Part shown: piece by piece, positions 33,847 through 58,448 of the stretch
Layout: every line of letters starts with the position of its first letter
Numbering within the stretch: the first letter of the stretch is position 1
Assembly (NCBI RefSeq): GCF_019649055.1
Contig: NW_026570478.1
Span: 1 to 64,000, forward strand
Direction of reading: 5' to 3'
Length of the DNA: 64,000 nucleotides
Origin: Paramacrobiotus metropolitanus
Taxonomy: Eukaryota; Tardigrada; Eutardigrada; Parachela; Macrobiotidae
Position numbers and translations under genes: made by a program
The notes under the pieces: model-generated
What the model was told of the DNA's origin: nothing
Seen by the model: only the letters and a program-made list of their open reading frames with translations
Databases searched by the model: none

Positions 33847-33850
33847 TTCC

Positions 33851-34390
33851 TTAGGTGTTGTCCAGAAGGTTTCGCCCATTTCATCTGAACGAACACAAAG
33901 GTCACGAGCCAGTTCGACTGCAGGATCAGTACCCGGACGTACTAGCTCGGTTACAGAACCGTCCAGCGGAACTACAAAAAGTGGAAAAAGAGTAAGGTCA
34001 CCGACAAACAGCCCATCAGAAGCTGAGAAGAAAGGACAGCGGACCCAAAAGGTCACGACGAGTAAAGCACCACGGGCAAAACCACAGACACCGATTCCAG
34101 TGGGTAGTCAGAGTGTGCCACCCACGCCGTCGAACGCAGGACCAAAAGCGCTTCGATTTCCGAAATGCAGAAGTTTTACGGTCAAATATACCGGGACGGA
34201 CCATAAGGAACGGAAGGTCACGGCCAGGATAGTCGAGAAAGCAACAAATAAGGAAATCGATTCATACAATCCTTTAGCGGACAAATCAGTCAAAACCGAG
34301 ATCGGGGAAAAGGCGAAGACAGAAGTCAATGAGGCGTTACAGTTCATCCCCCGGAAGAACGTCATAACCCAAGAGTTCTCATTCAGATGA
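33851..34390 (+). CDS. Second half of the accessory ORF cut by insertion
   Basis: The frame is open from the left edge of the element without an ATG until far inside. It encodes a Ser/Thr/Pro/Lys-rich disordered part (SGKRVRSPTNSPSEAEKK), then a beta-rich segment (FPKCRSFTVKYTGTDHKERK) and ends IPRKNVITQEFSFR. The stop overlaps the next start (ATGA at 34387-34390). The matching 5' half is at 57210-58448. With a 4-bp target duplication the two halves join in the same frame. Function unknown. Confidence 0.6.
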   Translation, partial: LGVVQKVSPISSERTQRSRASSTAGSVPGRTSSVTEPSSGTTKSGKRVRSPTNSPSEAEKKGQRTQKVTTSKAPRAKPQTPIPVGSQSVPPTPSNAGPKALRFPKCRSFTVKYTGTDHKERKVTARIVEKATNKEIDSYNPLADKSVKTEIGEKAKTEVNEALQFIPRKNVITQEFSFR

Positions 34391-37050
34391 TGAAACACGT
34401 AGTGTCAAAGGTAGCGACCGAAGAAGATGCATGGATTCGAATTAAAGTGGGAACAAATGATGACCACTTGGCATATACATATACAGTGGACGGAAGGCTC
34501 CTGACAGCAGAAAGAATCCGCCCAAAATCGACGGCAGATCCTGACCCGAAAAAGCGAACAGCAGATGACTATGAGTCGATTTTGAAATATAATGATGCGA
34601 CGTGCAGGAAAACGACGTTTAAATTGGAATACGACGCCGATCCAGCGGAGATCATAACCGCGGTGATAGTTGATCAGATAACGGGAGACCCAATTCCTTT
34701 TGCACCATGGGATGCATCAGATGAAAGCGCTCGTAATGCTGACCAAAAAGCTCGCGACGAATTGTGGAACCTCATACCACCAAGCGATCGTCAAGATCCT
34801 AAAGCTCATAAGAACACAATGATCAGTATGATGCGTCATCGAGCGGAAATGGATGGAGCTCATCTCCGAATAACAAAAAATATGAGTGATGGATCATACA
34901 AAACAGGGTTTTATGATGAGAAACTCAATCACCTATGGGAGATAGTGACACAACCACCAAAGGTGCCGACAGCTCATCTGGAAATAAACCCGGCACAAGA
35001 AAGTGGAGCCGGAGAGATGGCAGAGGCCTCCGTAGCCGAAGCGGCAGGAACGGAGAGTACCCAGCGACCATCGAAACAAGATGATCCAGAAGAAGAAGAA
35101 GGTGAAGGGGATTCGACGGAAGAATCGACCGACGAAGATGAAGACGACGACATAGCCGAGGACGACAACGTTTCTCCAAAAGTTGTTGTTAAACCAAGTA
35201 AAGCGCCCAAACTGGAACAAGCCATGAAGCGTGAAAAAGTTAACACAGGTGACTTCCTGAAGAAACGAAAGGAAGAAGAAGAAAAAAGGAAAAAGAGCGG
35301 CGATGACAGCGAGGATCCAAGCACCGGGAAAAAGAAAGCGGAGAAAAAGAAAAAGGATAAACCGTCTTCTCCCGATGTCGAAATCCTGAACGAGTCTGTT
35401 GCCGAAGTTGCAGAAAGGTCATCGACACCTACAACTTCAAAGAAATATGTGATTGAATCGGCTACATCAAAATCAAAGGTCACCGTGCCCGAGTCGCTTC
35501 CACAAAAGGGAAAGAACATAGCTGTGAAACAGCTTGTCCCAGTTGTAATCTCGGCATCCACTATAAAGGAGCGCAAGGAGAAAGGAAAGCGTGACAAGGC
35601 AAAACGAGAGACGTCTCGTGAATCGGAAGCGTCGGAAGTGAGCCTACCAAGCACTTCAACGGTTAGCACAAGGTCATAACCGGAACATAAAACGGCCCGC
35701 TCAAGAAGCCTAGCGGAGGCTTTTTATAAAGGGAAGAAAGCAAAGAGTGAACCGGCAAAATCGAAAAAGAAAGGGAAGGAGGCCACTAAAATAGATGCAC
35801 TGGCAATGGCTACTTACACCGCACCAGACGGTGAGAGCGAGCTCGATTTCTCGGGAGACGAAGAGAAATTCGATGACCCTGATAATGACAACATGACCAC
35901 AATAGATGAAATCGTTGATGCGTACGACGGTGCTGAGAAAAATTTTACGCGGACAAGAACGGCACCGGTAACAGCGAAATTTAGAACGGGCCTGAAGAAG
36001 TATTTGAAAGAGAAACGCCGCAGTTTCACCAAACAGAAATTTGACGTAGTATTGGAATATGCGCGGAACGCGGGAAAACTCATTCAGAGACATCCGAACT
36101 TCGCTTATAGGGCCAAGCTCTTCAGACCAGCAAGTTCAGATAAGGCGCTGACAACTCCAAACGAGGACACCCAAATGCGAGTCGAAAGAGCAATCGCGGG
36201 GATGACAAGCCCGCTGGGATCTACGTGCCATAGGATCAGCCAATACATCAACGCTGTTTGGAATGACGGAAAAGGAGTGATAAAGGAACTTGACACGGCT
36301 ACCGAACGCGTATTACCGCGGATGATAAAACAGAATATCATTTCAACAACGAACGCACACAAAGGACTACCGATCCGATATACGCGAGTTGGTCTAATAC
36401 CGCCAGAAAGGCAGACCTACTGTTATATGTCCGACAGCCAGGACATGGAAAAAGTTGTTGTTACGTTAAGTGGAGACCCCTCGACTTCTATACTGAATCA
36501 AATCGCACAGAAGACGGCCGAAGAGGAAGCCGCTCGGAAAAAGGCACAGACTTCGAGAAGGTCGAAAGTGAAAGGACCAATGGATGAGGAATCAGAAGAA
36601 AGTGATGACGATACTATGACACAGACGCCCCTTGAACCGGCGAAGGATGACCAGCCTAAAGGTCAAGGAACAGCCGGAACTCAAACGAAAGGTCACGAGA
36701 CTCCGCGAAAAGGGACGAAAGAAAAGGTCATGCTCCCAATGGGGAAAGCGGCGGCGGAAGCAGCAGCAGCTTCCGCGCGTCAGGTGTTTCAGAGGTCATT
36801 GTTCGTCCCATTAAAGGACGTTTTCGAGAAGGAACGATCAAAGTCGGCGGGCGAACTGGGAGGTCATGTGACTCTACCGCAGGAAGAGAAAACAGTTGAA
36901 CCGAAATCGGCTCAATCATCATCCGGGTCAGTAGGAAAGTTGACAATTGATGAGAAACGGACCCAAGAAACGGACCCAACGGACTCGGCAAAACCCCCCC
37001 AGAAAACGGAACCAAAGAGACGACAGATTATTCACTCGGAGCACCGTTAG
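34387..37050 (+). CDS. Large acidic/basic accessory protein with LPIRYT motif, one in-frame stop
   Basis: Two frames, 34387-35679 and 35806-37050, are in the same phase and separated by a single TAA at 35677-35679, one transition from a Gln codon. The first part is globular (EDAWIRIKVGTNDDHLAYTY; PIPFAPWDASDESARNAD), then acidic (DEDEDDDIAEDDN), then a Lys/Glu coiled region. The second part has helices (FDVVLEYARNAGKLIQRHP) and the TTNAHKGLPIRYTRVG motif shared with the minus-strand relative, then a disordered Lys/Glu/Pro tail. Length about 888 codons. The ATG overlaps the previous stop, suggesting coupled translation or a frameshift relic. No enzyme motif found. Confidence 0.6.
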
Positions 37051-37052
37051 AT

Positions 37053-37559
37053 GTGAATAATCGGACATGGAACGAAGTCCAAACTGCGCTACAGATTATT
37101 CGAGAAAAAGAAATGCTCGGTACGGATCTGAAAAGACAAGTCGCAGTAAACTCGAACGGAAGATCGTCACTAAACATGACTGAACGAGTCTTGAAACGGG
37201 CATATAAGGAAGAACGATTGGGATGTAAATATAACAAAGATAACAACAAGGTTATTTACTACCTCCCGAAACAGGGCCAGGAACGCACGCCCAGACTGAA
37301 AATGGAACTGGAGGCCTGGAAGATGGCCATTACAGATGTGGCTCTGGACGCCATTGGTGGTACCAACGGAGCGTCATGGGGCGACCTTTCAAATTTCATG
37401 GCTGTCCATTATGAATTGGGAGAATTGAATATTGAAAACGATAAAGAATGGATCAAGAATGCCGTAGAAGCATTGATTGCAGATGAAGTGCTCCATATCA
37501 AACAGGACGGCCGAGTTGACTTCAAACCATATCAACCGCCGGCAAAGGAGTCTGAATGA
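37053..37559 (+). CDS. Linker-histone-like winged-helix protein or domain
   Basis: The frame, open upstream of 37053 with no stop back to the C7 run at 36994-37000, encodes two winged-helix-like units. The second (GASWGDLSNFMAVHYELGEL, then KNAVEALIADEVLHIKQDGR) has the length and helix-helix-helix-wing pattern of the globular domain of linker histone H1/H5. The first (VQTALQIIREKEMLGTDLKR, then LKRAYKEERLGCKYNK) may be another. It lies one frame away from the preceding ORF; a single-base change at the C7 run, or programmed slippage, would fuse them. DNA binding or nucleosome-like packaging is inference. Confidence 0.5.
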   Translation: MNNRTWNEVQTALQIIREKEMLGTDLKRQVAVNSNGRSSLNMTERVLKRAYKEERLGCKYNKDNNKVIYYLPKQGQERTPRLKMELEAWKMAITDVALDAIGGTNGASWGDLSNFMAVHYELGELNIENDKEWIKNAVEALIADEVLHIKQDGRVDFKPYQPPAKESE

Positions 37560-37917
37560 ATGGGACGCGTGTAATATGCAGCAAGTAATGAACCCTGCAT
37601 ATTACAGAAAAAGCATAAAATAGTTAAAAACGAAAGAGAAAAGTTTTACGGAAAATTAAGAGTGAAAAGGTCAACTCCAGAAGTAGCGACGATAAGACTA
37701 GCAGAAAAGGTCACAATAGTCAGATAGTGCTGATAACGTGAGAAAGGTCACCACGTTACAGTGATAGAATGGGCAAAAGGAGCTAGGAAAGTCTCAGCTC
37801 AGTAACGGAATAGGCGTAAAAATGATAGAAAGCCTTGAAAGTCGATAGGAACGGAAAGGATTTACGCGGAAAGGTTATTATGTTGGATTGTTTTAATTGC
37901 AGATTCGAAACGAAAAA
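37560..37917 (+). promoter_or_regulatory. Intergenic segment ending in a 3' splice site
   Basis: No ORF. It contains GAAAAGGTCA-type words at about 37667, 37702 and 37744. It ends with a pyrimidine-rich tract and acceptor GTTTTAATTGCAG (AG at 37901-37902), 15 bases before the ATG at 37918. This suggests that the zinc/RS ORF is translated from a spliced subgenomic RNA. Confidence 0.55.
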
Positions 37918-38823
37918 ATGGCACAAAAAGGTCAAGCCACTCCTAAAGGCTCAAGAACGGCATCAGAAATAGACAGATCTACGGGCTATAACCCAAAGTG
38001 TCCGGACTGTCTACGGAACAACAGAAAGGTCGACAAGAAATTCCCTTGCTACACATGCCTTCACAAGTTAGGTGATCCACATATCGTCTCACTTGTTTGG
38101 ATCACGGAAGCCAAACGCGGGAACTTGGACGTTTTTCGAAACCTCATCAGTGCGAGGAATTATGGCAGCATCCCAGTAGATGAGCGAATGCTACTCGAGG
38201 ATCGTTACCGGGAAGCGATCCAGAACAAAGAAAGCGGCTGGGATGAGACTTTGGAGCCGTTGAAAGGCCCCCAGACAGACGCATATCGAAAGAAGTTCGA
38301 GGCTGATCAGGAGAAGATGCGACTCCAGAAATTAGAAGATGAACTCCGTGCGAAGATTTATGCGGAGAACAAAAGAGCAAGCGAACAGGCCGCACGAGAG
38401 ACGCTGTCCAGTTCGTCGAGTTCAGCTGTACCTACAGCCAGCCTTAATGAAGACGAAGTGCAGCTGATACGTCAGTCTCTCATCATTCAAATCGACACGT
38501 TAACGAATGACCCGGCCGCTATGCCACAGGACTTATTCGACGCGCTGTTACGGGAAAAGCTAAGATTACAGAAAGGTTTTGCACCAGCGCCATACATAAA
38601 AAAGGCAGTCGAAGAACGTATGGAAGAGTTGCGCAAATCCCGTCAAACCGAAAGTAATGTCCTACAAGCGCTCAGAAGTTTTAAACGGGATGAAGGCTCT
38701 ATACGACCTCGATCGCCTCCGCATAGAGAAAGGTCACGCGGACATTCACGTGAACATGAGCGGACCTCTGAAAGACGAAGCGAAAGGTCACGCGAATACT
38801 CTCGTGAACGGACACGGGATTAG
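37918..38823 (+). CDS. Zinc-binding RS-repeat protein
   Basis: The ATG at 37918 follows a splice acceptor. The N-terminus carries a four-cysteine cluster (CPDCLRNNRKVDKKFPCYTC, then LHKLGDPH). The middle is helical (KMRLQKLEDELRAKIYAENK). The C-terminus is an Arg/Ser/Glu-repeat (RERSRGHSREHERTSERRSE, continuing to RERTRD), like RS domains of splicing factors. In the DNA the RS region is built of repeated AAAGGTCACGCG units. A role in regulating splicing or nuclear retention of the element RNA is plausible for a spliced retroelement but unproven. Later frames (38981-39709) continue with similar composition after frame changes, so the protein may once have been longer. Confidence 0.55.
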   Translation: MAQKGQATPKGSRTASEIDRSTGYNPKCPDCLRNNRKVDKKFPCYTCLHKLGDPHIVSLVWITEAKRGNLDVFRNLISARNYGSIPVDERMLLEDRYREAIQNKESGWDETLEPLKGPQTDAYRKKFEADQEKMRLQKLEDELRAKIYAENKRASEQAARETLSSSSSSAVPTASLNEDEVQLIRQSLIIQIDTLTNDPAAMPQDLFDALLREKLRLQKGFAPAPYIKKAVEERMEELRKSRQTESNVLQALRSFKRDEGSIRPRSPPHRERSRGHSREHERTSERRSERSREYSRERTRD

Positions 38824-40621
38824 CGTAGCGAAAGGTCACGCGAGCGTTCCCGCGACAGAGATTACCGTGGCGGAAGAGGATGGGTACGTCATGGAAATGA
38901 AATAACGGAGACTAGCATTCAACGGAAAATTGATACAGCAAGGATTTTGACTGCAACAACAGGACGGGAAAAGCAACGGCGTGCGGAGGCATTCCGCACA
39001 GAGCCTGAAAAGGAAGGTCATCAGGTGCCGTTGGGAGTCCCATTCCGTAACCGCAATGTTCGAATGTCAACACCTGAAAGGTCATGGGACAAGAGACGCG
39101 AACGTACGCGGAACCGAACGCCAGACCCACAGGATAAAAGATGGCAGGAGAGCTAAGTACTATGCTAGCTTCGAATCCGGCGCAAGCAAAAGGTCATCGA
39201 GCGCGGAACGGGAAGATTCACCCCCAAAGCACCAGCGAATGGAGTCAACGGTCCATGTGGTGGATCCCATCATAAGTGCCGCTCAGACCAGTTCAGTTGT
39301 CGAAGCGTCTCAAGAAAATGTGACTCATCGACGAAATGTAATTCTCGACAGCGACCCTCAACCGGCTTCATCGGCGAGTAATGAACCGCCGCAGCGGGAA
39401 CTTGAGGAACGACGCGAACAAGAAGTTCAGCGTGAAGCGGACAGCCGTCGCGTCAATGAACGACGAACGATTTCCCGATTTAATAACCGACACCCCGACA
39501 TAATTGATATGGAATATAATATGAACGATATCGACGAACAAACGGTGGAAATTTGTCGATACTTCGGCATCGAGAATGATTCGGTCGAAGCTAATAAAAT
39601 TGGCACAAATTTGAATCAGCTGCACCAATTTTTACTCGATTCTGGGTACGCGAGAGAGATTAAGAGGGGAGTGGAAGAAGGAACTTTCCGTCGGTTACAT
39701 TCCTCGTGACTCTGCGCGAGATTGTTATCTCCCCATCCGACGAAATGGTTTACACAGTTTGGTGGACTTGAGCTTATTAGACGTGCCATTGGACACGACT
39801 GACCCTGTCGGGATGACACAATTCTATCACACAGACTATGATGAACGACAGGAATATGTGGCTCAGTTCGTTTTACGGCATGTGAATCCGGCCTTCTAGT
39901 TGCTTGCAGAGCATCGATCGGATTACAGGTGGATCCGAAAGACTATGCCGCAAAAAGGATGGGGCAAAAGGTCTTTGCTGCGAGACTGGCGCATTATAAG
40001 ACACAGAACCAGTTGGTGTCTAATACAATGAAGGACGATATCCCGCCATTTTTCCGACCTCATGTCATTAAGTTGGGAGAGCCTATGGAACATGTTGGAA
40101 TAGCCCACACGGCTTGGAAGGCGTTAAAGAAGTGTGGGACACGAATGGAAAAGGGTAACCTTACACGGCGCCATGCCTCCCAAGTGGAAGAGCGAATTAA
40201 CCGGATTAAAGATACCATGGGAAGCGACTATGTGGAACCAGTGGACGGAGTAGACGTCTACGTTAACGAATTTCTGGTCAACAAAGGCGACCGACGCCCA
40301 GAACGCGCTCCTAACCAAATAGGACGACGCGGCTTGCGAAACCAGCAGCTTCGCGAAAATCTCGCCGATGTACAGCGTCGGTAAGCGGATGACCCTAATA
40401 ACCGAAGACTGCGGTTGGAAGAAAATGACGCACGCCATCGAGTCGAGGCGGTTAGACGCAGTCGCCAAGGGAAAGGTCGTGGTCAGCGTGCAGTTGACCC
40501 AGAAAAGGTCATGGCAGTTGATTCAACGGAACCAGTTGACCGTACGTCCGACCGTAATCAACCGGAAAGTACCAAGAAGCGCCCGCCGAAAGACGGCGAG
40601 GAGGATTCAAATGAAATGGAA
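38824..40621 (+). pseudogene. Broken continuation of the RS-type ORF
   Basis: Frames 38981-39709 and 39929-40384 plus the open stretch between them (about 39690-39897) give protein-like text in alternating frames: a Ser/Arg/Glu-rich part, then a helical domain (FGIENDSVEANKIGTNLNQL), then TDYDERQEYVAQFVLRHVNP, then a basic C-terminus (RRGLRNQQLRENLADVQRR). One stop near 39897 and frame changes near 39700 and 39925 separate them. I read one degenerate gene of unknown function. Confidence 0.45.
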
Positions 40622-40740
40622 TAGTGTTGATCGTTAGGATCACACTATTAAAAGGACGTCTACGGCATTTGTCGGTGCGTCACAAAAATGAAACATGGTG
40701 TTGTATATGAGGGCGACATGACATATTATTATAAACTGTA

Positions 40741-40767
40741 TTCGTGTATTTGTTGTTTTCAGCGTTT
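40741..40767 (+). promoter_or_regulatory. 3' splice site before the structured tail
   Basis: TATTTGTTGTTTTCAG (AG at 40761-40762) is a strong acceptor. The next ATG (40768) opens only a seven-codon frame beginning MAQ, like the zinc/RS ORF. It would define a third spliced RNA that carries mainly the hairpin repeats. Confidence 0.45.
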
Positions 40768-40810
40768 ATGGCACAGAACCGCAAAGGATAAAGAAATCAT
40801 GTGGAGTAGC

Positions 40811-41280
40811 GATGGGGGTTAAAATTGATTCGGTCTACAAAGCCGGCCCCAAGGGAGTAGTTACGGCAGTTAGCCGGCTCTCCTCTTTAAGCGACTCAAT
40901 GTTACAAATCGGCAAGAGAGACTACGGTTATCAAGCCGGATCTCTTGAAGACGAAAGGGGGCCACAAGCGGCGAAAAAGAGAAAGACAACAGGTGGAAAT
41001 ATTAATGGGGTTGAATTTGATTCGGTCTATTAGCCGGCCCCATCGGAGATGCTACGGTAAACTATGCCGGCCATCTCTCTATACGATTCAGTGTCAAAAC
41101 TTAACGAGAGAACTAACGGTAATCAAGCCGGATCTCTCGTACGGAAGCTGGGCCACAAGCGGCGAACAAGAGTAAAAGATTTCATGTGGAAGCGTCATGG
41201 GGTAAATTTAATGCGGTAGTTAGCCGGCCCCATCAGAGATGTTACGGTAAACTCTGCCGGCACTCTGGCCGCTCGAGGCA
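40811..41280 (+). repeat. Tandem 190-base structured module, about 2.4 copies
   Basis: Copies start near 40811, 41007 and 41198 with TGGGGTTRAATTTGATTCGG. The first two end with GGGCCACAAGCGGCGAA. Each copy contains one or two hairpins of the type stem-(C)UACGG-loop-GCCGG-stem: 40854-40883, 40914-40946, 41046-41077, 41105-41139 and 41234-41267. The outer stems differ in sequence between copies but stay paired. No ORF. A related hairpin stands at 43116-43149 in the Gag leader. Confidence 0.75.
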
Positions 41281-42889
41281 TATTGAAGTTGGATGTGCGA
41301 CGGAAAGGTCAACTTGAAAGTTTTACCAGGGAGGCAAGCAAAGTGCTTGAAAGTCGGCAAAAATCGGCTAAGTTCCTCCATGACCTATAATGGAAATTTG
41401 AAGTGAAGATGGATGACCTTTGGAATCACTATTACCCAACAGAGTCATTGTATTGAACTTCAAGTCGCATGACCTTTTAGGACCATTAACCCAAAACGAG
41501 CCGCACATCTCAACGGATCATCTCAATAAAGGATGACCTTTACCAGGGTGGAAGCGAACTACGCTTGTCTTCATTGACGTCCCTCCATGACCTTTATGGA
41601 TCTCATTTTTAAGTCGTACAATTGATACGCACCTTATTCCAAAGAATGAAGCAGTATTCTTAAGTCGTATTCGATACGCACCTGATTCTCAAGCGGATTG
41701 TGATGAAAGTCGCATTACGGATGCGCGAAATTGCTCAACGGAGCGGAATGGGCCAATGTGCGGAAAACGGTGGACAAAACCTGTGACCTTTACGAGTCAG
41801 AAATGGAGGATCCTTGTCTACATTTTGATTAATACTTTTGTTGATCTGTTTAACTGTTGATTTGATAATATTTTTATAATTGGATCTCTTTATTCACATC
41901 GTATTAAATGGAATTGTGCCTTATGGAATTGATGTGATATGATAAATGGAATAAGAGGATTTGATGTTTTTGAGCACGCACAGACACCGGCGACCGTCGT
42001 CTTTTCGTGGATTCGGGAGTGTGTTGAGCCTCACAGGAGCTCGGCATCCCCCCAGAGGCATGTGAGACGAGGGCTCACTAGCGTTCACGCCTGTGGCGCT
42101 AGGCGCTACGCCATGGATTACGGTCTGTGTTGTGTCTCGCTTCTGATTGGTTGACGGCTATAGCCGTTCATTGTGGTCTGTTTTGTGGGCGCGGCATAGC
42201 ACGTGCTGCACAGTGTGGAATTGGCTCCACGTTTTACGATCGAGCTGCGCCGATCACTTGTTGATTTTCTGTGCTCCAGACTTTCAATATTATTAAAAGT
42301 CAGCTATGCGCGGTGCGACGTTTTGTGTTTCCGCATAGTTCGCTACACTTATCGCGTAGCTCACTCCACAGGATAGATCCCGTTTTCTGTCTCTGTCTCT
42401 GGATCCATTCTGGATCTAGCATTAGAGTCCGAAACGAAATCGATTCACTCAACTCATTAACGGCTATATGTGCCGGGTGTTCTACGGATCGTTTTATCGG
42501 ACCGGATAAAGTACAGGTGATGTGAAAATGGATGTGATCTGCTGGTGTGCAGTTTTCCTTGTGAATCTTCCATTACAGAGAATAAGATGTTTTGAGCTGA
42601 TATTTGAAGTGAGATTCTTCTTTGCCTTATTTTTGTTTTCCTTTCATAAGTACTTGCAGGGCGGATTTTTGTGTTTGATATGCCTTGCATTCTGTGATAA
42701 TTAAGAAACTTCAATGATTATTTTTGAATTTTCCACGCCACTAGTGTTTGTGGTTTTATAAGACTGAATAAAATGCAAAAGCTGTTGTCCTTTTCACCGA
42801 AGACGTTTTCATAACATATGTTGTTACGCACACCACAAGCGGTACAACTCCATCGGAACGCGGATTTTCAGCTTTGGTTTTCGGTACAG
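41281..42889 (+). other. Non-coding region, candidate internal LTR
   Basis: No ORF of protein-like composition. The word TGACCTTT appears repeatedly on this strand (about 41370-41800). AATAAAGG at 41525-41532 and AATAAAA at 42765-42771 are possible polyadenylation signals; TATTAAAAG near 42291 and CTGATTGGTTG near 42143 could be promoter elements. When the element is viewed as a circle this segment lies between the last gene and the Gag leader, where a single LTR would be expected. No repeat partner exists in this copy, so LTR limits cannot be set. Confidence 0.4.
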
Positions 42890-43200
42890 TGTCTTCAGCG
42901 AAGACCTGTGCTGTTTCCTCAGCTGTGCAAGAGTACAAGAGTTCAGTCGTCAGTGTTCCTCGGTGTAGAGTCTTCAGCGAAGACCTACACTGGTGTCATT
43001 GATACTCGGCAAGGCTTCAGCGAAGCCTAAGCCGTGGGCCACAAGCGGCGAAGCGCCAAAAGGGGCGCACGAAACAAGACCAGATCAGACTCCTCCAAAC
43101 TGGAGTAGAGCACTACTACTGTTGCTACGGCAGTCAGCCGGCACAGTAGCAGACCAAAAGCGTGCGGCACAACCGCTACGGAAAAGCGGCAACGCGGGAG
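42890..43200 (+). ncRNA. Leader hairpins with CUUC-AGC-GAAG apex and one UACGG hairpin
   Basis: Three hairpins share the apex CTTCAGCGAAG but have different paired stems: 42891-42905 (GTCTTC/GAAGAC, extended by ACAG/CTGT), 42970-42984 (extended by GTGTAG/CTACAC) and 43007-43034 (AGGCTTC/GAAGCCT, extended by CGGC/GCCG). The T-A to G-C change with matching partner is a compensatory change. A UACGG-GCCGG hairpin at 43116-43149 follows, stem CTACTGT/ACAGTAG. The position upstream of Gag suggests a packaging, dimerisation or translation element; that is inference. Confidence 0.65.
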
Positions 43201-48864: not shown

Positions 48865-51422
48865 CACTGCAACGGAAGGAAATATGGCAAAAAGTGGCCT
48901 ATAGACCAAATGGGAATCACAGGATGTGGATTCCCGTAACGCCGAAAGCGAAACAGAAAGCTGGAATGTCACAAGAAGACTACTGGGACATGCAGGAATT
49001 GCGATCGCAACATGAGAGAAAACGACTGGAAGAATTGGTTACAGGGAAACCAGTTAAAAGGTCGAACTCTGTCCCAATATTCAACGCAACCGAATACAAG
49101 AATGCACAAGCTGACCTGAATAACCCGCGAAATGCACCGCCGGGAGATAAACCGTTAAATTACGGAGAAAAAGTTCCCATACAAAAGTTGTCCAGCGGCG
49201 GATTTGTCATGAAGCACAACGAAAGGTCACAGGACTTAGCGCAGAAGGAACAAAAAGGACGGTCAAATGAAATGGCGCAAACGCAACAGAGTAGCGCGAC
49301 AGAAAGGTCACGGGACTTATCACAAGCATTACAGAGAGATGCCAATAATAAGTCACCAACTAGAACGGACGGGATGTCTTCGCAAATTGATCCGACGAAA
49401 ACGAATAACGAAGTATCAGCGAAGGTGATTGAATGGATGACTCAAAAAGGATATGATATGGTTACATACGAAAGGTCACCAGATGAGATGGGAGACAGTG
49501 AAGAAGATGAATTGAAACGGGCTGACCAGATAACAAGCGAAGTCATTGAGAAGTTGCGGGATAAACGAAATGATGACCGTAAAGAAGAACTGATCCATCA
49601 GACGATAAGCGAAATGACTAAAAGCCATGTGACCAGCACAAAAGCGAAGAAGCAAGTGCTGCAAGAGCCACAGAAATTTTACGATGTCCGAACAAACGTG
49701 CCACACAGGATTTATAAATTGAGTGAAATACAGAAAGGTCACAGCACTCAGATGAAAGGGCAAGTGCTTCCCGACACGGATCCTGGACCAGTATCGCTCA
49801 TTCCTGTGAAATGTAAGATTCACACACTGAAGATTCAGAATGGAAAACTACCCAAACAAATTGAAGTGTACACTCACGAAGTGAAGGTGGGAGATATAAA
49901 GGTCAACGCGATGTTGGATACCGGCGCTGAGACGTCGTTGATCAGCAAACCATTCTGTGAGAAAAATGGACTTCATATGCTCCCATTGCCACCAGACAGA
50001 CTGGTGAAGATAAATGGAATTAGCGGAACGTCAGGATTCTTGGTGACACATTACTGTGTAGCACCAGTGACCTTAAGAGAAAAGACTAGCGAACATTCAT
50101 TCTACGTCCGACCGAAGTGTGACGACGTACATGTGCTGCTGGGATTTGACTTCTTAGAGAAGAAATTCGTATTGATGGATAATGAAGGGGAAGAGGAGAC
50201 AGAAGATGACCCGAAACCAGTCGCCAAAGTTCAAGTCGGAAAGGTCACCGAACTTGCTCAAACGGCTAATAAAACGCTAATCCCAGTACCAAAGGCACAG
50301 GGAAAAGAAAAGAAAAAGACGACGCAAAAAGAATTGTCAACATTGGAGCAGTTGAAAGTGATCCAACAGGAGATTGAGAATACATTAAATCGGACACTGC
50401 TGACACAAAAGGGGAGAGAAAAGGTCATCCCAGTACCAGAGGCACCGGGAATGACAAAAGTGCAGCGGAATGTGAAAGCGCAGCAGCAAGAAATTATCCC
50501 AGTACCAGAGGCACTGGAAAAGAAAAACGAAAATGAAAATGTTGAAAAAATTATCCCAGTACCAGAGGCACTGGGCAAAGGAAACGAAAGGTCACCAGTG
50601 ACAAATACTGCAAACTTAGTACCAGAGCCAGATCCGAAAAACGCCAATACGACCTTTTTCGAACCACGCCCTCCCACGGTAAATAAAAATGGAAATAAAG
50701 AGAGAGTTATCCGTATACCTGAGGCACTGGGAAAAGAAATTCAAAGGTCACCAGTACCAGAGCGTACTTCGAATCTTTTCGAACCACGATCTGCTACCGA
50801 AAATGAAAAGCTACAAGCTAAAGCCAAAGAAGAAGTAACAGAACGTGACTCTCAAAAGGAACCCTTTTTCCAACAACACTCTGCTATTATTGACGAAAGG
50901 TCACCAACGTTTGAAGAGATAGCTGCCACACAGAAAGAAGCATTAGCTGCAGCGAAACAATCGCTCGTGCCTGACTTGGAGTGGGCAAAGCCTATCCCAG
51001 TACCAGAGGCACTGGGAATAAAGACGGCTAAAGTGTGGAAGGACAAAAAGTGCGAAAGGCTACGAGTACTGAAACGAATAGCCGAAGAGGAACAGATGTT
51101 TACGAGTGAAATCCGCAACAAGGCGATAGAACAATTGAAAGGTCACCAAGTGAAAAAAGAACCAGAGGTCATTGAATTATCCTCTGACGAAGCAAGCGTG
51201 ACCCAAGTTGAGCGTGAGCACGGTGCCACAGTACAAGAAAGCAAAGATGTTAATCCACAAACGGTTAAAAGGGTACTAACGTTGGAAGAACGGATAGGGA
51301 GTTGTCACCACGGTTACTACGAGGATCCGTGCAGAGTACAGCCTCAATGGGAATGTGCTGAATGTCGTGACAATGCCTCTCAAGATGACCTCCGGAATGG
51401 CCGAAATGCAACGCTGCCATAG
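48852..51422 (+). CDS. Gypsy aspartic protease polyprotein segment
   Basis: The frame opens at 48852 on a GTG; the first ATG is 48924. The retropepsin core follows KVNAML with DTGAETSLISKP (catalytic Asp at 49917-49919), then LPLPPDRLVKINGISG and a second glycine-rich strand VHVLLGFDFLEKKFVLMD. The N-terminal 300 residues are a charged linker with repeated ERS/KGH motifs. After the protease come six to eight IPVPEALG-like repeats (50281-51020) and LFEPR/FFEPR motifs, then a Cys/His cluster (CHHGYYEDPC, WECAEC). The next ORF is in the -1 phase, open from 51383, so ribosomal frameshifting or an indel links them. Known role: cleavage of Gag-Pol. Confidence 0.82.
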   Translation: MDAVTLQRKEIWQKVAYRPNGNHRMWIPVTPKAKQKAGMSQEDYWDMQELRSQHERKRLEELVTGKPVKRSNSVPIFNATEYKNAQADLNNPRNAPPGDKPLNYGEKVPIQKLSSGGFVMKHNERSQDLAQKEQKGRSNEMAQTQQSSATERSRDLSQALQRDANNKSPTRTDGMSSQIDPTKTNNEVSAKVIEWMTQKGYDMVTYERSPDEMGDSEEDELKRADQITSEVIEKLRDKRNDDRKEELIHQTISEMTKSHVTSTKAKKQVLQEPQKFYDVRTNVPHRIYKLSEIQKGHSTQMKGQVLPDTDPGPVSLIPVKCKIHTLKIQNGKLPKQIEVYTHEVKVGDIKVNAMLDTGAETSLISKPFCEKNGLHMLPLPPDRLVKINGISGTSGFLVTHYCVAPVTLREKTSEHSFYVRPKCDDVHVLLGFDFLEKKFVLMDNEGEEETEDDPKPVAKVQVGKVTELAQTANKTLIPVPKAQGKEKKKTTQKELSTLEQLKVIQQEIENTLNRTLLTQKGREKVIPVPEAPGMTKVQRNVKAQQQEIIPVPEALEKKNENENVEKIIPVPEALGKGNERSPVTNTANLVPEPDPKNANTTFFEPRPPTVNKNGNKERVIRIPEALGKEIQRSPVPERTSNLFEPRSATENEKLQAKAKEEVTERDSQKEPFFQQHSAIIDERSPTFEEIAATQKEALAAAKQSLVPDLEWAKPIPVPEALGIKTAKVWKDKKCERLRVLKRIAEEEQMFTSEIRNKAIEQLKGHQVKKEPEVIELSSDEASVTQVEREHGATVQESKDVNPQTVKRVLTLEERIGSCHHGYYEDPCRVQPQWECAECRDNASQDDLRNGRNATLP

Positions 51423-51478
51423 CAGATCTTAAAGGTCATGTCCAAAAAGAACTGAAAAGCATAATACGAACAAACGTA

Positions 51479-54400
51479 ATGTGGAAACCACACATTGAAC
51501 GATATCATTGGAATAGATATCGGGCATGGTTATCAAGCGTAAAGAACTTCATAATGGGGAGAGGAAAATGGTTAAACCATTGGCAACAACGTGCGGATAA
51601 TGGATACCAAGATCCCCTTGACCCAGTAAAAACGGAACGGAAACTTGAAAGGGAAATGGAAGAAATGAATGAAGAAGTGCAGTTATGGGAAGAAGCAAGG
51701 ATAGAACTGTTCTGGGACTTTCGCATAAATCATATGTATAAAGGTCAAGGAAGAACAGTCATATTCCCGACAGGACTTCGTACACCGGTATACGAGTACG
51801 TTGTGATGTTCTGCAAAGCACTAAAAGAAGACAACTGGGACATATTTGACAAATATTGGACGAAATTTGAAGCGGACATCCCTATATTTGATACAAAAGA
51901 GATGCAAGAATTACAAGTAACCCGGAAAAGAAGGTTACCGGGATCACTGGAAAAGAAAAAGGTGACATTTGCACCCGATCCAGATGGAGTTGATTATCCT
52001 GAACGGGGAGGAGATACGTGGTGCATGTACGAAACAATTCCAAGTGATGATTGGGTCACCGAAGAACTGATGGCAAATTGCGTCTTTGTTGGTCCCAAAC
52101 GACCTAAAGGGTATGAAACGGCCCAACAGGACGAAGACGATAAAGTGACTGTAAAAGAAGCAGAGAGAAAGGAAACGGCTAAAGAAACAGTCGAAGGAGG
52201 ATCGAATGAAACGGAGGAATCGTTTACGTCAGCTCTTAACATTGCAAAGATGCTAACGGACAGAGGTGAAATGTGGAGGAAATTCAAAGAGGAGGTGAAA
52301 AGGATATCAAATGAACAGCAAAACCCAGTAACTGAGGCAAAAAACGGGAAAAGGTCACTCGATAACGGTGAGGAATGTCCGCCGGTCGAGTCGACCGAAG
52401 AGCCATTAATGAGCCTTGAAGAAATTGACGAACTGGAAAAGTCAAATCAAGAGGAACAAAGGTCAAACTCTGATCAGTCAGAAAGGTCATCAACGAGAAT
52501 ACGAGTAGCAAGGAGTCATCCCAGGATCGCTGCACGAAATGGAAGAAAAGCAAAAGAAGCAGACAAACCTCTACTCAAAAATCCAAAAGCGAAAAAACTT
52601 AGCGATCTACGGGAAAACGAAAGTGACCTTTCATCAGAAGACGAAGGAGTTGACGAGCGCCCGCTTGAAGAAGCTAACAAAGGTCAAGCAACTGCACAAG
52701 AATATGAGAGCAGTAACTCAGACTCGGAGTGGACGAGTTCAAGTGATAATTCAGCGACTTCAGAAGATTCAGGTGTAAGTGACCTTTCGGAACAAGAAGA
52801 CTTACTGGACTTGGACGAAGATGACGAAGTGGACGAAGAAAAAGAAAAAGAAATAAAAGTCAGAAGATTGAAAGTGGAAAAAGCTAGACTGTCGAAAGAT
52901 GTGATTAAAGTCTACAGCGACCAACGAATTAAATTGAAACCGTCAAACTGCACACGTGTAAAGGTCAAGATGGGAAAATATGCGCCGGCTCAAAACAAGT
53001 TGATGTTCACACCGGTCCCACAAATCGAAACTGACGTGCAGCCGTTAGCAGGAGTGACGGACCACAGAGGAAAATATTTCGAAATCGTCATTGCGAATCA
53101 CAGTAGCAAATACCAAATCGTAAAGAAAAATCAGCTTCTCGGCTACGTTGAACCGTATGAACATATGGAAAATGTAAAGGTCAACGCTGGGACAGTAAAG
53201 AATGTACTCGAAGATCCCGAGGTGGATGACACGACTAAAGCGGAATTGACAAAGATAATTGGAAATTTGAAGCTAGGACCTGACCTAACTGAGGAACAGA
53301 AGAATGACGTGTATAACGCCTTCTGGGAATTCTGGAAAGTCCTACCGACATCGAAGAAACCGTATGGGGACGTGAAAGGGGTCACTCACGTAATTGACAC
53401 GGGAGATGCGAAACCAGTCAAATGTAATCCGGCCAGAACGAGTTGGACAGGCCGTGAGTTCATAATAAAGCACATAGAAGAGATGTTAGCACAAGATGTA
53501 ATCGAACCGTCAGACGCCGAGTGGAGCTTTCCAGTTGTGTTGGCAGTTAAGAAAAACGGCGACGGGACAATGGGAACGAGATTTTGTGTCAATTACATCA
53601 TGCTGAATAAGCTAACGAGAAAGAATAATTACCCGCTACCGAATCCAGATGAGTTGCTCGACGCGTGCGCAGGCAACAAATATTATGGAAAAATGGACTT
53701 GCAAAGTGGATTCTGGCAGATCCCAATGGATCCAGCGTCAATCAACAAGACGACCTTTGTAACACAAGACGGAATGTACCGATTTAAGAGAATGCCATTT
53801 GGAGTTTGCAACGGGCCAGCAACATTTCAATTGTGCATGGACAAAGTATTGTCCAAAGCGAAAAGAAAGGGTTGTGTTTTCGGTTACATTGATGACGTTA
53901 TCTTCGCCGGAAAAACTTGGGCGATATTCATGCAGAATTTTAGAAACGTCTTAATGAGTCTAGTTGAAGCGGGATTCACAATAAAGCCAACTAAGTGCGA
54001 GTTCGGAATGAGACAAATGGGATTCCTCGGTCACATACTCAGTGAAGACGGAATCAGAATGGATCCGGAAAAGGACACCGCGGTCTCAGAATTCAAACGG
54101 CCTCAAACAGAACGACAGTTAAGGTCATTCCTCGGATTGGCGAATTATTATCGAAAGTTCATAATGGGATATGCACAGAGAAAGTGTCATCTGTATGAGT
54201 TGCTGAGACAAGACAAGCAAGTGAAAAAGGACTGGACAAAGATACATGAAGACGAATTCAACAGTCTGAAACAATTGTTATGCGAAGGCCCGGTATTGGC
54301 AAAATTTGACCCGACAAAACCGACTGTAATTGAATGCGACGCGAGCAAAGAGGGAATCGGAGCGGTCCTATCACAAGAAGGTCATCCGATTGCGTACGCT

Positions 54401-54766
54401 AGTCGCGTCTTACATGGAGCAGAAAGAAATTACGGCGTAATGGAATGGGAATGTCTGGCAGTGGTATTCGCTGTCAGAAAATTCAAGCAATTTATTGACT
54501 ATGCGGAATTCACCGTACGAACGGATCACCAGGCACTGACCAACTTGTTAAGGTCAGAAACGAATAAAGTTTTAATGAACCCGCGCCTGACAAGATGGGC
54601 GATGGCATTGCAAGGTCACCAGTTTAAAATTGAATATAAACCGGGAAAGTACTGTGACAATGCAGATGCGCTATCAAGAGCACCAATTGAAGGTCCAACT
54701 TGTCAAGAGGAGGAATTCGACGAGATTCCGAATTTTGAGGATTATAAGAAGGAATTCGACACGTAA
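51479..54766 (+). CDS. Gypsy reverse transcriptase and RNase H
   Basis: A 1095-codon frame. The first about 550 residues are an acidic linker (DLDEDDEVDEEKEKEIK). RT begins near residue 600: HVIDTGDAKPVK, FPVVLAVKKNGDG, FCVNYIMLNKLT, YYGKMDLQSGFWQIPM (first catalytic Asp), MPFGVCNGPATFQ and the YIDD box at 53885-53896 with the other two Asp. Then GFLGHILSEDGI, LGLANYYRKFI and an RNase H domain with IECDASKEGIGAVLSQ, WECLAVVFAVRKFK and RTDHQALTNL, which contain the acidic residues. All catalytic residues I can check are present. It copies element RNA to DNA. The following linker stays in phase after TAA 54764-54766. Confidence 0.92.
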   Translation: MWKPHIERYHWNRYRAWLSSVKNFIMGRGKWLNHWQQRADNGYQDPLDPVKTERKLEREMEEMNEEVQLWEEARIELFWDFRINHMYKGQGRTVIFPTGLRTPVYEYVVMFCKALKEDNWDIFDKYWTKFEADIPIFDTKEMQELQVTRKRRLPGSLEKKKVTFAPDPDGVDYPERGGDTWCMYETIPSDDWVTEELMANCVFVGPKRPKGYETAQQDEDDKVTVKEAERKETAKETVEGGSNETEESFTSALNIAKMLTDRGEMWRKFKEEVKRISNEQQNPVTEAKNGKRSLDNGEECPPVESTEEPLMSLEEIDELEKSNQEEQRSNSDQSERSSTRIRVARSHPRIAARNGRKAKEADKPLLKNPKAKKLSDLRENESDLSSEDEGVDERPLEEANKGQATAQEYESSNSDSEWTSSSDNSATSEDSGVSDLSEQEDLLDLDEDDEVDEEKEKEIKVRRLKVEKARLSKDVIKVYSDQRIKLKPSNCTRVKVKMGKYAPAQNKLMFTPVPQIETDVQPLAGVTDHRGKYFEIVIANHSSKYQIVKKNQLLGYVEPYEHMENVKVNAGTVKNVLEDPEVDDTTKAELTKIIGNLKLGPDLTEEQKNDVYNAFWEFWKVLPTSKKPYGDVKGVTHVIDTGDAKPVKCNPARTSWTGREFIIKHIEEMLAQDVIEPSDAEWSFPVVLAVKKNGDGTMGTRFCVNYIMLNKLTRKNNYPLPNPDELLDACAGNKYYGKMDLQSGFWQIPMDPASINKTTFVTQDGMYRFKRMPFGVCNGPATFQLCMDKVLSKAKRKGCVFGYIDDVIFAGKTWAIFMQNFRNVLMSLVEAGFTIKPTKCEFGMRQMGFLGHILSEDGIRMDPEKDTAVSEFKRPQTERQLRSFLGLANYYRKFIMGYAQRKCHLYELLRQDKQVKKDWTKIHEDEFNSLKQLLCEGPVLAKFDPTKPTVIECDASKEGIGAVLSQEGHPIAYASRVLHGAERNYGVMEWECLAVVFAVRKFKQFIDYAEFTVRTDHQALTNLLRSETNKVLMNPRLTRWAMALQGHQFKIEYKPGKYCDNADALSRAPIEGPTCQEEEFDEIPNFEDYKKEFDT

Positions 54767-55387
54767 GAACCAGCAGCTGAAATTGAACAGTTGTTCTTAC
54801 AGATGGTGGAACAACGAGAAAAACGTTTAAAGGTCACCTCAGCTACGGCGAATGAGTCGGCTGAATCAGAAGTGAAAGTGAACCGTGTAAAAAGCTGGTT
54901 GCCAAAGGTTAGTGACTTAAAGGTCACCGGACTTAAACGGGATCGGAAGCTCAAAATGGAAAGGTCACCGGACTCAATGAAGCATTGAAACAGAGATGAC
55001 CTTTGGGAAACGGACAAAGTAGCACAAGCATTGAACGAGTGCCCTATAAAGCTGTTGCGATTCCCGAAACAGATGAAAAAGAGGTATAAACCGCTACCAC
55101 GCTGTAAGGTCATTAAAGATTGGAACGAACTCAGTACGGCGACAGTTCGCATCGTCAACCTACAAGGAGATGAGGAAGAGGAAGACGACTCGAACTTGCA
55201 GTTGCGAAATAAACAGTTGAAAGATCCCCATTTGGCAATGATGATAGACGAATTGGAACATCTACCAGATGCTGAGACAAGATCGAAATTTGAAGTGCAC
55301 TATCAGTTATGGAATGGCATATTATACCGAGTAAAGGATAAAAATGGGAAACTTGAAAGGTCATATGTAGTACCGTTGTCAATATGA
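54767..55387 (+). pseudogene. Pol linker between RNase H and integrase
   Basis: Same phase as RT. Stops TAA (54764-54766), TGA (54986-54988) and TGA (55385-55387) interrupt otherwise continuous protein-like text: a basic segment rich in KVT repeats from AAAGGTCAC words, then DWNELSTATVRIVNL and LAMMIDELEHLPDAE shared with the minus-strand relative. Each stop is one transition from a sense codon such as Gln or Arg. Confidence 0.65.
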
Positions 55388-56352
55388 AGAGCGTTCATCC
55401 ACGCATTGCACGACGAGAAAGCAGCAGGCCATTTGGGATTCGAAAAGACACTGACAGCAATCCGACTTCGATATTACTGGGACAGGATGAGTACAGATGT
55501 GAAGAATTACATACTCGCCTGCCAAGGATGTCAGTTTCGAAAGACACCGAGAAAATGCCCACCCGGAAAACTGCAAGAGATAAAAGTTGGACATCCATTC
55601 TTCCGAGTCTACGCGGACTTGAAAGGACCGCTTTTGCCAACGAAGAAACGCGGATATAAGTACATAGCAGTATTCATCGATCAACTGACCAAATATGTGA
55701 TATCAGTACCGATGAAGACGGCAACGGCTAAAGAGTTCGCGAAGTGTTCGTAAAGCACGTGATATTGGTACACGGAGCACCGCACATTCTACATACTGAT
55801 CGCGGACGACACTTCACCGCCGAAGTATTGGCAAAGGTCACCAATGTGTTCAAGATTAAACACACGTTTGGAACGGCGTATCACCCAGAAGGTCAAGGCC
55901 AAGTTGAAAGACAGATGCAAACTATTGCGGATGGCTTAGCACAATATCTGAAAGCGGGAAATGAAAGGAAGTTCAACAAATATCTCCCATATGTTATTTC
56001 AGCAATGAACCGAGTCGTACACGCTACAACCGGATACTCAGCATATTATATGTTGCACGGCAGAGAAATGACAATGCCGGAAGATGTGGTCACAAAGACG
56101 AATATCCCAGACGATTATGGGACTCCCGATGAATGGGTAGAGACCATGAAGAAGAACTTGACCTTTGCAGAAGAAGTGGCCAAATGCAATATAAAAGATG
56201 CTTATGAAAAGAATGCGGAGATATACAATAAGAGGAAGTCGGAACCGAACTTTAAAGTGGGCGACTTTGTATTGATACGACTACCAAAGGACACGAAACA
56301 AGGAAAGAAAGAAAACCAGTCGGACTTTAAGTCAAAATGCGATAAAGTGTGA
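55388..56352 (+). CDS. Gypsy integrase, one frameshift
   Basis: In phase with RT to about 55740: HHCC zinc motif (ALHDEKAAGHLGFEKT; ACQGCQF), then the first catalytic Asp in RVYADLKGPL. A one-base phase change near 55741-55750 leads to frame 55744-56352: HTDRGRHFTAEVLAKV with the second Asp, YHPEGQGQVERQMQT with the catalytic Glu, and YMLHGREMTMP. The D,D(35)E set is complete, unlike in the minus-strand copy. TGA at 56350-56352 separates the C-terminal domain. Known role: inserting element DNA with a short target duplication. Confidence 0.85.
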
Positions 56353-57084
56353 AAGATTCTCAGTTTCGCGCGAGCAAACGAAGCGGAGGTCATCGAGCAG
56401 AACCCGAAGAAAGAAGCGGACTTGAAAGTGGTCTCGATTGATCGTCTGAAACCATGGCACCCTCCGTTGCCGGATGAGGAAAAAGGAACAGTAGAAAGAG
56501 TAACAGAGCGTACTCAAAAAGATTTGGATAAATCTTTTTTCGAACCACCTCTGCTGCCCGAAATGGAAAAAGTAAATGAAAACGAAACCGAAGAAGTCGA
56601 GCATGCTTCGAAAAATAGCATTAGTCAATTTTTCGAACCACGCTCACTGCTACCTGATATAAGCGGAGACAAACCAAAAAAGAAGAGAGAGAGACCAAGA
56701 AAAGAGGATAAAGACTTCGAAACTGCAGTAACACAAAAGTTGAACGCAGAAGCTGGAAATCTGGTAGAAAGGTCATTGGAAAAAGATATGGAAGTACCAG
56801 AGCGTAATTCCAAAAAGGACTTACAACAATCCTTTTTCGAACCACGCACTGCTAGCGATAATGAGAGGGACCTCATACAAAAGAGAAAGGAGGAAATAGA
56901 GGCGGTCAAATCAAAAGCTGAACAGTTGGGCCGCGACATAGCGAAAGCAATCGATGAGAGAAAGGTCAAACAGAAGAAAAAGAAACTAACTCCTACAGAA
57001 TTGTTGACCCAGAAAGGTGAAGTTGAAGATGCTGCCGACAAAGAACTCCTTGATCGGATAACTAAAAAACGCAAAAACAGATAA
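56353..57084 (+). CDS. Integrase C-terminal domain and charged tail
   Basis: In phase with the integrase core across TGA 56350-56352. KVVSIDRLKPWHPPLP is the typical end of gypsy integrase C-terminal domains. The tail has three FFEPP/FFEPR motifs (near 56540, 56630, 56837), like those after the protease, and a basic KKKRERPRKE stretch in the position of the AT-hook-like motif of the minus-strand copy. Ends at TAA 57082-57084. The FFEPR repeats look like short linear binding motifs; partner unknown. Confidence 0.65.
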   Translation, partial: KILSFARANEAEVIEQNPKKEADLKVVSIDRLKPWHPPLPDEEKGTVERVTERTQKDLDKSFFEPPLLPEMEKVNENETEEVEHASKNSISQFFEPRSLLPDISGDKPKKKRERPRKEDKDFETAVTQKLNAEAGNLVERSLEKDMEVPERNSKKDLQQSFFEPRTASDNERDLIQKRKEEIEAVKSKAEQLGRDIAKAIDERKVKQKKKKLTPTELLTQKGEVEDAADKELLDRITKKRKNR

Positions 57085-57209
57085 CCCACATAGATATGAA
57101 TAAGGGGTTCACTTCACTAAAGATAGGAGTTGGGAAGGTGTAAAAAGGTCATCACCGTTATAAAAGCTAACCAATATCGTTTCATTGTTACAGAAGGTAA
57201 GCACACTTA
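57085..57209 (+). promoter_or_regulatory. 3' splice site before the post-integrase ORF
   Basis: A branch-point-like GCTAACC is followed by TATCGTTTCATTGTTACAG (AG at 57193-57194), about 16 bases before the ATG of the next ORF. This is the arrangement of a spliced env-position message. The segment carries one AAAAAGGTCATC word. Confidence 0.6.
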
Positions 57210-58448
57210 ATGGACAGATTGGACCGACAAAACTCAGATAATTCTGACTCGGAAATTATTGAAAATCCGTTAAAAGCATCCACCCCTAAAAGAATGGAAG
57301 GCGAATATGGCTATGACATCTCATATGGTGAGGGGTCGACGTCGTCAGTAGGAACGGCGCAGAACGAACCCGGAACGGTACAAGGAGGACCTTATGGTGG
57401 CCCAGGGTATTACGGGTATCCTGGACAGCCGACAAGTTATCAAGATACAGTTAACTGGGTGCACCACGGCTCGACTGCCGGAACCCAGTACACAGAACAA
57501 GCGATGTACAATGCCCCTTATCAGCCGTATCCAGGAGCGTACACCCCACCAATGGGACCATCGCAGGTGATGATGGGATCGGCAACAATGTTGATGCCGC
57601 CACCGCAACAGACCACACCGAGCAGATTCATGGGACATAGCGGATTTAGCGGAATGGTGTCAACTCCAGTACAGTCTCAAAGAGCATCCCCGATATTGCC
57701 ACCCTTTCCAGCAACGGGAGGTCTGTCATTGTCGGACATTGGATCACCTCGCTTGAGATCACCGCAACAATTAGGAGCGCAACGGCCTCACCGAAACTCG
57801 CCACAAAAAGAAGAGAGGCGAGGAGGCAACAGATTTGATTCACCACGACCGCGAGGTATGTTGCCATCACTGGGCCCCAATTTAGAGGAGATCGGACCAG
57901 ATGGACTACGGGCAACGCCTCCAGGCGAACCGTCAGTGCATGAGTACGCGCCAAAACTCTCTTTGCATCTCAGAGAAGATGACGCGCGTTTGAATGTGAT
58001 CGTGGACAAAGAGGAAAAATTGACGGAAACGGATAGAGGGGCAATCCAGGATTTTAATAGGATGTGCCGTGACCTTTACAGAATTCACATGAGAGTTGAA
58101 GATGAACATGGATGGTATGGGAAGTTGATTAGCCTGGAGGCAGTCATCAAACCATGCCATATTGCATCGAATGGGAAAACGAAGCTAATCGAAGCAAAGC
58201 GCAAAGAATTAGCGATAAAGATCGCATCTATGTGGCAGTATCACCCGACAGTAAAGGGCAGGCAATGGCCATGGATTATTGAGAAGGTCCTGAGATACCT
58301 TAAGGTGTTCCCGGAGGAGAAAATGATCCCAGCAACCAGCAGTGCGGGACCATCCGGATCGTTAGCCGAAAAAGCAGCCTCAGTAGATGAGATGTCTGAC
58401 AGTGACCTTTTAGAAGCAAAAATAAAAGTCGATGCTGAATTGACTGAA
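57210..58448 (+). CDS. First half of the post-integrase accessory ORF
   Basis: About 413 element codons from the ATG near 57210; the open frame beyond 58448 (to 58598) belongs to the interrupted gypsy gag on the other strand. Residues 1-170 are Gly/Pro/Tyr/Gln-rich (YGGPGYYGYPGQPTSYQD; PPMGPSQVMMGSATML), then a basic Pro/Arg/Ser region, then a helical domain (DRGAIQDFNRMCRDLYRIHM; GKTKLIEAKRKELAIKIASM). The same layout occurs in the minus-strand relative at 24075-21501. No membrane segment, so not a recognisable envelope; low-complexity prion-like N-terminus is notable. The 3' half is at 33851-34390. Confidence 0.6.

Follow-up and report, generated by a model that had tools for sequence, protein, structure and literature searches.

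Introduction

The closest described systems come from plants, where VANC proteins, themselves encoded by transposable elements (TEs), bind motifs of their own TE, with methylation lost throughout the TE and with related families differing in motif; the motifs of VANC21 and VANC6 are 8-9 bp long and have built up in tandem within their own elements (excerpted text of PMC5735166). Giant retrotransposons of the Ty3/Gypsy group are described as well, among them Burro of planarians, with an internal region of up to 25 kb, and Ogre of plants, at 16-25 kb (excerpted text of PMC6431247). Here we analyse a stretch of 64,000 nucleotides from the tardigrade Paramacrobiotus metropolitanus (contig NW_026570478.1, positions 1 to 64,000; hereafter the window), in which an 8-bp word, AAAGGTCA, recurs throughout most of a giant element at 33849-58448. 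The carrier is a ~24.5-kb Ty3/Gypsy-type long terminal repeat (LTR) retrotransposon. The word is exact, is under selection and is specific to this family; a sister giant family seems to have a different and weaker word, and both families contain a related open reading frame (ORF) with a zinc motif. A literature search found no paper evidently on the giant element or its word, and the strings 'transpos' and 'LTR' are absent from the excerpted text of the tardigrade paper PMC11191345.

An exact word confined to a giant element

Exact counting in 33849-58448 gave 87 copies of AAAGGTCA (57 forward, 30 reverse), compared with 1.8 expected from a trinucleotide Markov model, and 115 of AGGTCA (78 forward, 37 reverse). 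A sequence-only reading of the same DNA had estimated 70-80 and about 100, so the enrichment is real and stronger than was claimed. In the same interval AAAGGTCACC occurs 18 times forward and never in reverse, and AAAGGTCACG 10 times forward and 3 times in reverse. The 24 one-mismatch neighbours of AAAGGTCA average just 2.04 copies, and the word therefore stands without a halo of decayed near-misses. As that reading had also noted, the word is nearly absent elsewhere in the window: the remaining 39.4 kb hold a single AAAGGTCA, against four copies of the reversed-word control, and 19 of AGGTCA. The flanks of other copies contain 2 words in 25,950 bp, the same as the reversed-word control, and sampled host DNA is unenriched. 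Because flanking and other window DNA is unenriched, the genome-wide excess of AAAGGTCA (42,562, versus 15,522 for the reversed word) probably sits in the giant-element family, whose copies were counted non-exhaustively.

Within the element the spread is uneven. The word had been described as running through the whole of 33849..58448 in all three reading frames; all three forward phases do carry it, but the element starts only at ~33887, with no word between 33849 and that point, and neither the LTR (42060-42426) nor the adjoining 42427-43589 holds a single copy. Sixteen words, all forward, lie in or between the accessory ORFs (33897..39196, +), and the 3' noncoding tail (40504..41791) has 2 forward and 5 reverse. 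The leader (43590..44224, -) contains an array of 17, all reading TGACCTTT on the + strand and partly arranged in 30-bp tandem units. The rest of the 5' half (44592..58410) has 47 words, 39 forward and 8 reverse, the latter at 44766, 46585, 52624, 52780, 54997, 56159, 58070 and 58403. Orientation is thus organized in domains, forward in most ORFs and reverse throughout the 17-word leader array and in five of the seven words of the tail. With the leader array taken as noncoding, 53 of the 87 words fall within ORFs. No helical phasing was detected (vector 0.157, versus ~0.136 by chance, 54 pairs). The minimum spacing in the window copy is 20 bp, with no spacing below this outside the leader where 3.8 were expected; a minimum-spacing rule was nevertheless dropped, since a diverged copy has spacings of 15-18 bp.

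Selection on the nucleotide word

Taking 18 frames as coding, we ran 1000 shuffles that exchanged synonymous codons within an ORF and so kept its protein and codon usage. The window copy has 45 forward and 8 reverse coding words, distributed as 10/21/14 over forward phases 0/1/2 and 2/6 over reverse phases 1/2, whereas the shuffles gave 4.0 and 0.39 (maxima 10 and 3). Codon-preserving shuffling, on which the sequence-only reading had staked its claim, therefore fails to reproduce the counts. Similar results were obtained in 500 synonymous shuffles each for the deeply diverged C1:202-219k copy (48 forward and 13 reverse, versus 6.87 and 0.61) and for the C4 copy (47 and 13, versus 4.28 and 0.31), where every open frame of 200 codons or more on the element's strand was used. 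Neither the protein nor codon usage accounts for the word.

Conservation was evaluated across copies by alignment with 33 loci, in which the words were unchanged in 411 of 497 comparisons, against 34,392 of 143,478 (24%) for other 8-mers; 86 of the 87 sites were comparable, many in just one or two loci, and the individual comparisons are not independent, as certain loci are fragments of the same copy and the copies have common ancestry. Each of the accessory-ORF words was compared in 8-19 loci, and each tail word in 0-2. To counter an aligner's preference for shared words, the words were masked before aligning, and six sets of random 8-mers, masked likewise, served as control: across 32 loci, 317 of 399 words were kept, versus 659 of 3114 random 8-mers. 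In 20 loci the footprint is sharp whether the word lies in ORFs, in the leader or in other noncoding DNA (site averages of 0.94-1.00 at the word positions and 0.54-0.96 in the flanks). Outside the leader, in ORFs and noncoding DNA alike, conservation falls immediately on either side of the word; within the leader, the four letters that follow it are also well kept (0.88-0.92), which fits the longer repeat unit there, AAAGGTCACTTT. Words in these loci were unchanged in 122 of 152 comparisons for coding forward, 26 of 38 for coding reverse, 31 of 38 and 7 of 10 for other noncoding forward and reverse, and 90 of 106 for leader reverse. Sites also turn over, in that 117 of 528 words in aligned parts of other copies are non-words in the window copy. 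Shuffles, footprint and both alignments agree with the earlier proposal that the nucleotide word rather than the protein is kept: selection maintains it on either strand and in all frames.

Other family members, the second point on which the sequence-only reading could have failed, show the enrichment too. The examined part of the C4 copy has 90 words in 21.8 kb, with 66 of the 74 compared window words unchanged, and that of the C1:202-219k copy has 85 in 16.6 kb, only 23 of them in still-alignable DNA. It is scarcely conceivable, on these results, that the word has no function and reflects composition, protein repeats or a copying artefact. The leader words are indeed partly tandem duplicates, but the synonymous shuffles, neighbour counts, masked alignment and sharp footprint all contradict such an origin, and gene conversion would be expected to conserve longer stretches.

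In all three copies the coding-frame enrichment of reverse words is at least as strong as that of forward words. Enrichment on both strands of coding DNA favours recognition of double-stranded DNA, since a one-strand RNA signal would not predict it. Whether DNA or RNA is read had been left open by the sequence-only reading; the strand symmetry in these copies suggests that the word acts as double-stranded DNA. An RNA word is improbable in our estimation. As such, AAAGGUCA in the genomic RNA (UGACCUUU in the leader) would be recognized by Gag or by accessory ORF e with its RS-rich tail, with a role in packaging, export or protection of the 24-kb unspliced RNA, or else words of opposite orientation would pair and fold the RNA. 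The orientation domains, the RS-rich tail of ORF e and a CCHC motif in the Gag-like ORF (by eye) would fit. The reverse coding words, however, are both enriched like the forward ones and conserved (see above), and changes that G-U pairing could tolerate amount to 18 of 48 single changes, an informal test that gave no clear excess and still permits pairing.

The base after the word bears on the site itself. Following the conserved words in other copies it is C in 260, T in 86, A in 65 and G in none (n=411), and in the window copy C in 56, T in 17, A in 13 and G in one (n=87). Given this near-absence of G, the site is effectively AAAGGTCAH, of which AAAGGTCAG is one of the one-base variants. We take AAAGGTCA to be the identical 8-mer to NBRE, the monomer site of NR4A nuclear receptors, which raises the possibility that the element filled itself with sites for a host nuclear receptor acting as activator or tether. 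The identity of the two sequences, which occur together in at least 26 papers, speaks for this, as do 63 zf-C4 exon matches in the host genome (none on the window's contig), and the preference for C after the word fits some NR4A matrices, which likewise prefer C after the site. We nonetheless judge a host receptor, though the main rival to an element-encoded reader, unlikely. Enrichment extends across the coding DNA of the whole element, unlike an enhancer-type cluster; monomer receptor sites normally tolerate substitutions, whereas one-mismatch forms are near background here; sampled host DNA shows no enrichment; and RGTCGG, as found in the sister family, does not correspond to a receptor half-site.

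A sister giant family with an apparent word of its own

The sister giant family, with reverse transcriptase (RT) 54-64% identical and 117 pattern matches, lacks AAAGGTCA in 27 kb and has one copy in ten 3-kb loci. A partial sister-family copy at 15939..26590 (-) serves as a control inside the window: it has no AAAGGTCA and carries a conserved GTCGG-type word. In this family GGTCGG/CCGACC occurs 66 times, versus 22.65 in synonymous shuffles, every phase on both strands shows a 2.3-3.2-fold enrichment of RGTCGG, and CCGAC/GTCGG is the 5-mer most clearly above the conservation baseline (96 of 164, versus 0.31). By these counts the sister family seems to carry a word of its own, RGTCGG, which has GGTC in common with AAAGGTCA.

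Separately, two short-unit repeat arrays in the window, at 5717-5962 (-) and 22497-22688 (+), share ACCTAAGAA, of which the first has 12 copies and the second, which falls within the sister-family copy, 11 in the opposite orientation.

Candidate readers of the word

ORF e (37897..38823, +) has a C-x2-C-x12-C-x2-C zinc motif, a GNLxxFR...W[DE]xT stretch and an RS-rich tail, and is the best candidate reader, a putative DNA binder that could also be an RNA binder. The median nonsynonymous/synonymous ratio of its zinc part is 0.06 (18 loci, 2 without a value), compared with 0.08 for ORF d (19 loci), 0.12-0.24 for the other computed ORFs and 0.06 for RT, the last from one usable locus. The sequence-only reading had put forward the H1-like protein, ORF d (37053..37559, +), as a possible binder. 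It is strongly constrained, but tblastn found no match to it in the deeply diverged C1:202-219k copy, which still carries the word and in which ORF e is present; ORFs a, b, c, f, g and r were also without a tblastn match there, and ORF d has no Pfam match.

A related stretch with all four cysteines occurs in the sister family (L043:2102-4282, P0135), aligning with ORF e at an hhalign E of 1.6e-4. Database matches to ORF e came from P. metropolitanus in 15 of 15 cases (8000 candidates scored), and the C4-zinc protein of both families was found in no other organism searched. In the diverged copy (L009:8504-8754, -) the RS-rich tail of ORF e itself holds 11 words at steps of 18-39 bp, so that word and protein repeat have partly merged there.

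The carrier element and its copies

Protease (PR), RT/RNase H and integrase (INT) follow in the Ty3/Gypsy order (PR-RT-RNase H-INT), and over its RT part the element shares 95% identity with an annotated P. metropolitanus protein. A search with the SL2 spliced leader, intended to place the host, matched neither it nor the controls and so carries no weight. The Gag-like ORF (46677..47885, +) has a CCHC motif and a Gly/Arg-rich tail, both spotted by eye in its translation; it matches no Pfam family above the cut-off, a phage-collection search gave no match, and a PDB search gave a best E of 0.23. The protease ORF (48852..51422, +) carries 11 forward words, RT/RNase H (51479..54766, +) 7 forward and 2 reverse, and the integrase region, with H2C2 and rve domains, occupies several open frames at 54989..56352 (+). 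About a dozen further ORFs accompany the Gag-like one, none over the Pfam cut-off. The protease ORF additionally contains, at 50272-51030, six 45-nt repeats around ATCCCAGTACCAGAGGCACTGG, encoding the peptide IPVPEALG.

More than 100 candidate copies exist: a first look gave 118 candidates with 33900-36900, 101 with the region of ORF e and 466 with 41000-44000, and 40 were scored in each set. Full copies with an LTR at both same-strand ends, paired by position only, are C36:1030301-1055114 (24.8 kb), C32:880361-904877 (24.5 kb), C7:802753-827468 (24.7 kb) and C36:216568-243986 (27.4 kb). The C4 copy has an internal deletion of most of ORFs c-g at the joint 36128|40547 (L021:3450-3456), with words still conserved. 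The LTR measures ~367 bp, and the window copy has a single one, at 42060..42426 (+), bounded by homology with other copies (start TGTGAG or near). A role of the word in integrase end-recognition, considered because LTRs and the reverse-complemented word both begin with TG, was rejected: most LTRs examined begin with TGTGAG, and the LTR is wordless.

The window copy is circularly permuted. Its 3' half, with accessory ORFs, noncoding tail and 3' LTR (33887..42426, +), lies upstream of its 5' half, with leader, ORF1/2, Gag-like ORF, PR, RT/RNase H, INT and further ORFs (42827..58448, +), and in all nine loci compared the positions that form its outer ends, 58448 and ~33887, adjoin one another. 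The inner junction consists of the 3' LTR, ~400 bp of foreign DNA (42427..42826, of which 42427-42824 matches C127:30783-31196 at 93%) and the leader, without the 5' LTR and its adjoining sequence. CTGAA is present at both outer junctions. On the simplest reading, a DNA circle with 400 bp of 3' flank may have re-inserted elsewhere at a 5-bp microhomology, although misassembly is possible. A search for the empty site gave no exact match and three with one mismatch; allowing up to two mismatches, the pattern occurred at 102 places, versus 58 for the reversed pattern, none of them shown to be the site. A protease-like frame (32758-33543, -, by eye) and a weakly gag-like frame (58449-60353, -), both on the opposite strand, flank the giant copy, which may sit inside another retroelement.

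A resemblance to a re-inserted circle would be compatible with a DNA-maintenance word, at which element cDNA or circles would recombine, be copied or be segregated, in the manner of a Chi, uptake or tether site, or which would help to compact the 24-kb cDNA. The DNA uptake words of Neisseria and Haemophilus are exact, short, present on both strands and found throughout coding DNA, and the exact, strand-symmetric, whole-length distribution described here is like theirs. Against this, no link was seen between words and breakpoints, the re-insertion junctions sharing CTGAA only, and we regard maintenance as very unlikely.

Discussion

We tentatively propose, at somewhat less than even confidence, that AAAGGTCA is a self-recognition word in double-stranded DNA, read by an element-encoded protein with a VANC-like anti-silencing effect. 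According to this proposal, a giant Ty3/Gypsy-type family would have spread AAAGGTCAH over its ~24.5-kb body, with selection maintaining the sites. A sequence-specific protein, most likely element-encoded and with ORF e as the best candidate, would occupy the ~90 sites of an integrated copy and, like VANC in VANDAL transposons, keep it accessible for transcription in the face of host silencing. Entry would be strongest at the array of 17 sites that follows the 5' LTR in the leader. That a protein binds the word, which protein it is and that it counters silencing are all inferred.

Several observations weigh against this proposal. Some sites are poorly kept: 37666, the weakest of the accessory-ORF words (9 of 19), 47470 (0 of 5), 56961 (5 of 10), 58070 (4 of 9) and 58403 (3 of 9). 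VANC motifs lie in noncoding DNA, whereas over half of the words here lie in ORFs and in all phases. As for the reader, ORF e matched no Pfam family over the cut-off and no PDB entry better than E 1.5, its predicted model is poor (mean pLDDT 63.2, about 45-61 in the zinc region), its RS-like tail fits RNA as readily as DNA, and the hhalign probability for its alignment with the sister stretch is just 51%. In the examined part of the C4 copy e, f and g are missing along with most of c and d, yet the words are kept, so that ORF e would have to act in trans. The sister word is weaker and looser than AAAGGTCA; the conservation test on the ten 3-kb sister loci was not clean, and a longer comparison was used instead; and the control word GTCCG is mildly raised too (0.75-0.85).

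A wider form of the proposal, which we consider possible though rather doubtful, is that each giant family of this tardigrade has its own C4-zinc protein and its own selected word, present in all reading frames, forming a self/non-self address that would let a retroelement mark and protect its 24-kb copies and in which word and reader co-evolve (AAAGGTCAH versus RGTCGG). If the proposal is correct, an animal LTR retrotransposon bears a strand-symmetric address inside its genes, near-exact while the remainder drifts by 15-30%, and TE self-recognition extends from plant DNA transposons to animal retroelements. The family would then also offer a test case for one protein acting on 24 kb, and a natural reader/word pair for the study of co-evolution. 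Should a host receptor be the reader instead, ~90 selected NR4A-type sites would represent a striking host dependence.

The word can be set against four known systems. NBREs act in promoters and enhancers, and, unlike NBRE/NR4A elements, ~90 copies occur here, mostly in ORFs and near-exact at every position. The likeness to the uptake words of Neisseria and Haemophilus lies in an exact short word on both strands, spread through coding DNA; those words belong to a bacterial uptake system, however, and no uptake is suggested for the giant element. Burro and Ogre, so far as the excerpted text on them goes, are also giant Gypsy-type elements with accessory coding DNA; the present element differs in its short LTR and many separate ORFs, and that text does not mention a dispersed word. 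The closest parallel remains VANC/VANDAL, a Mutator-like system of Arabidopsis. Pfam scans of the accessory ORFs showed no VANC homologue, and no direct comparison with VANC was made; that system resembles ours in a short word amplified in one TE family, a related family with a different word (weak in our case), a tandem array in noncoding DNA (here the leader) and an element-encoded binder (here a candidate), the difference being that the carrier described here is an animal LTR retrotransposon.

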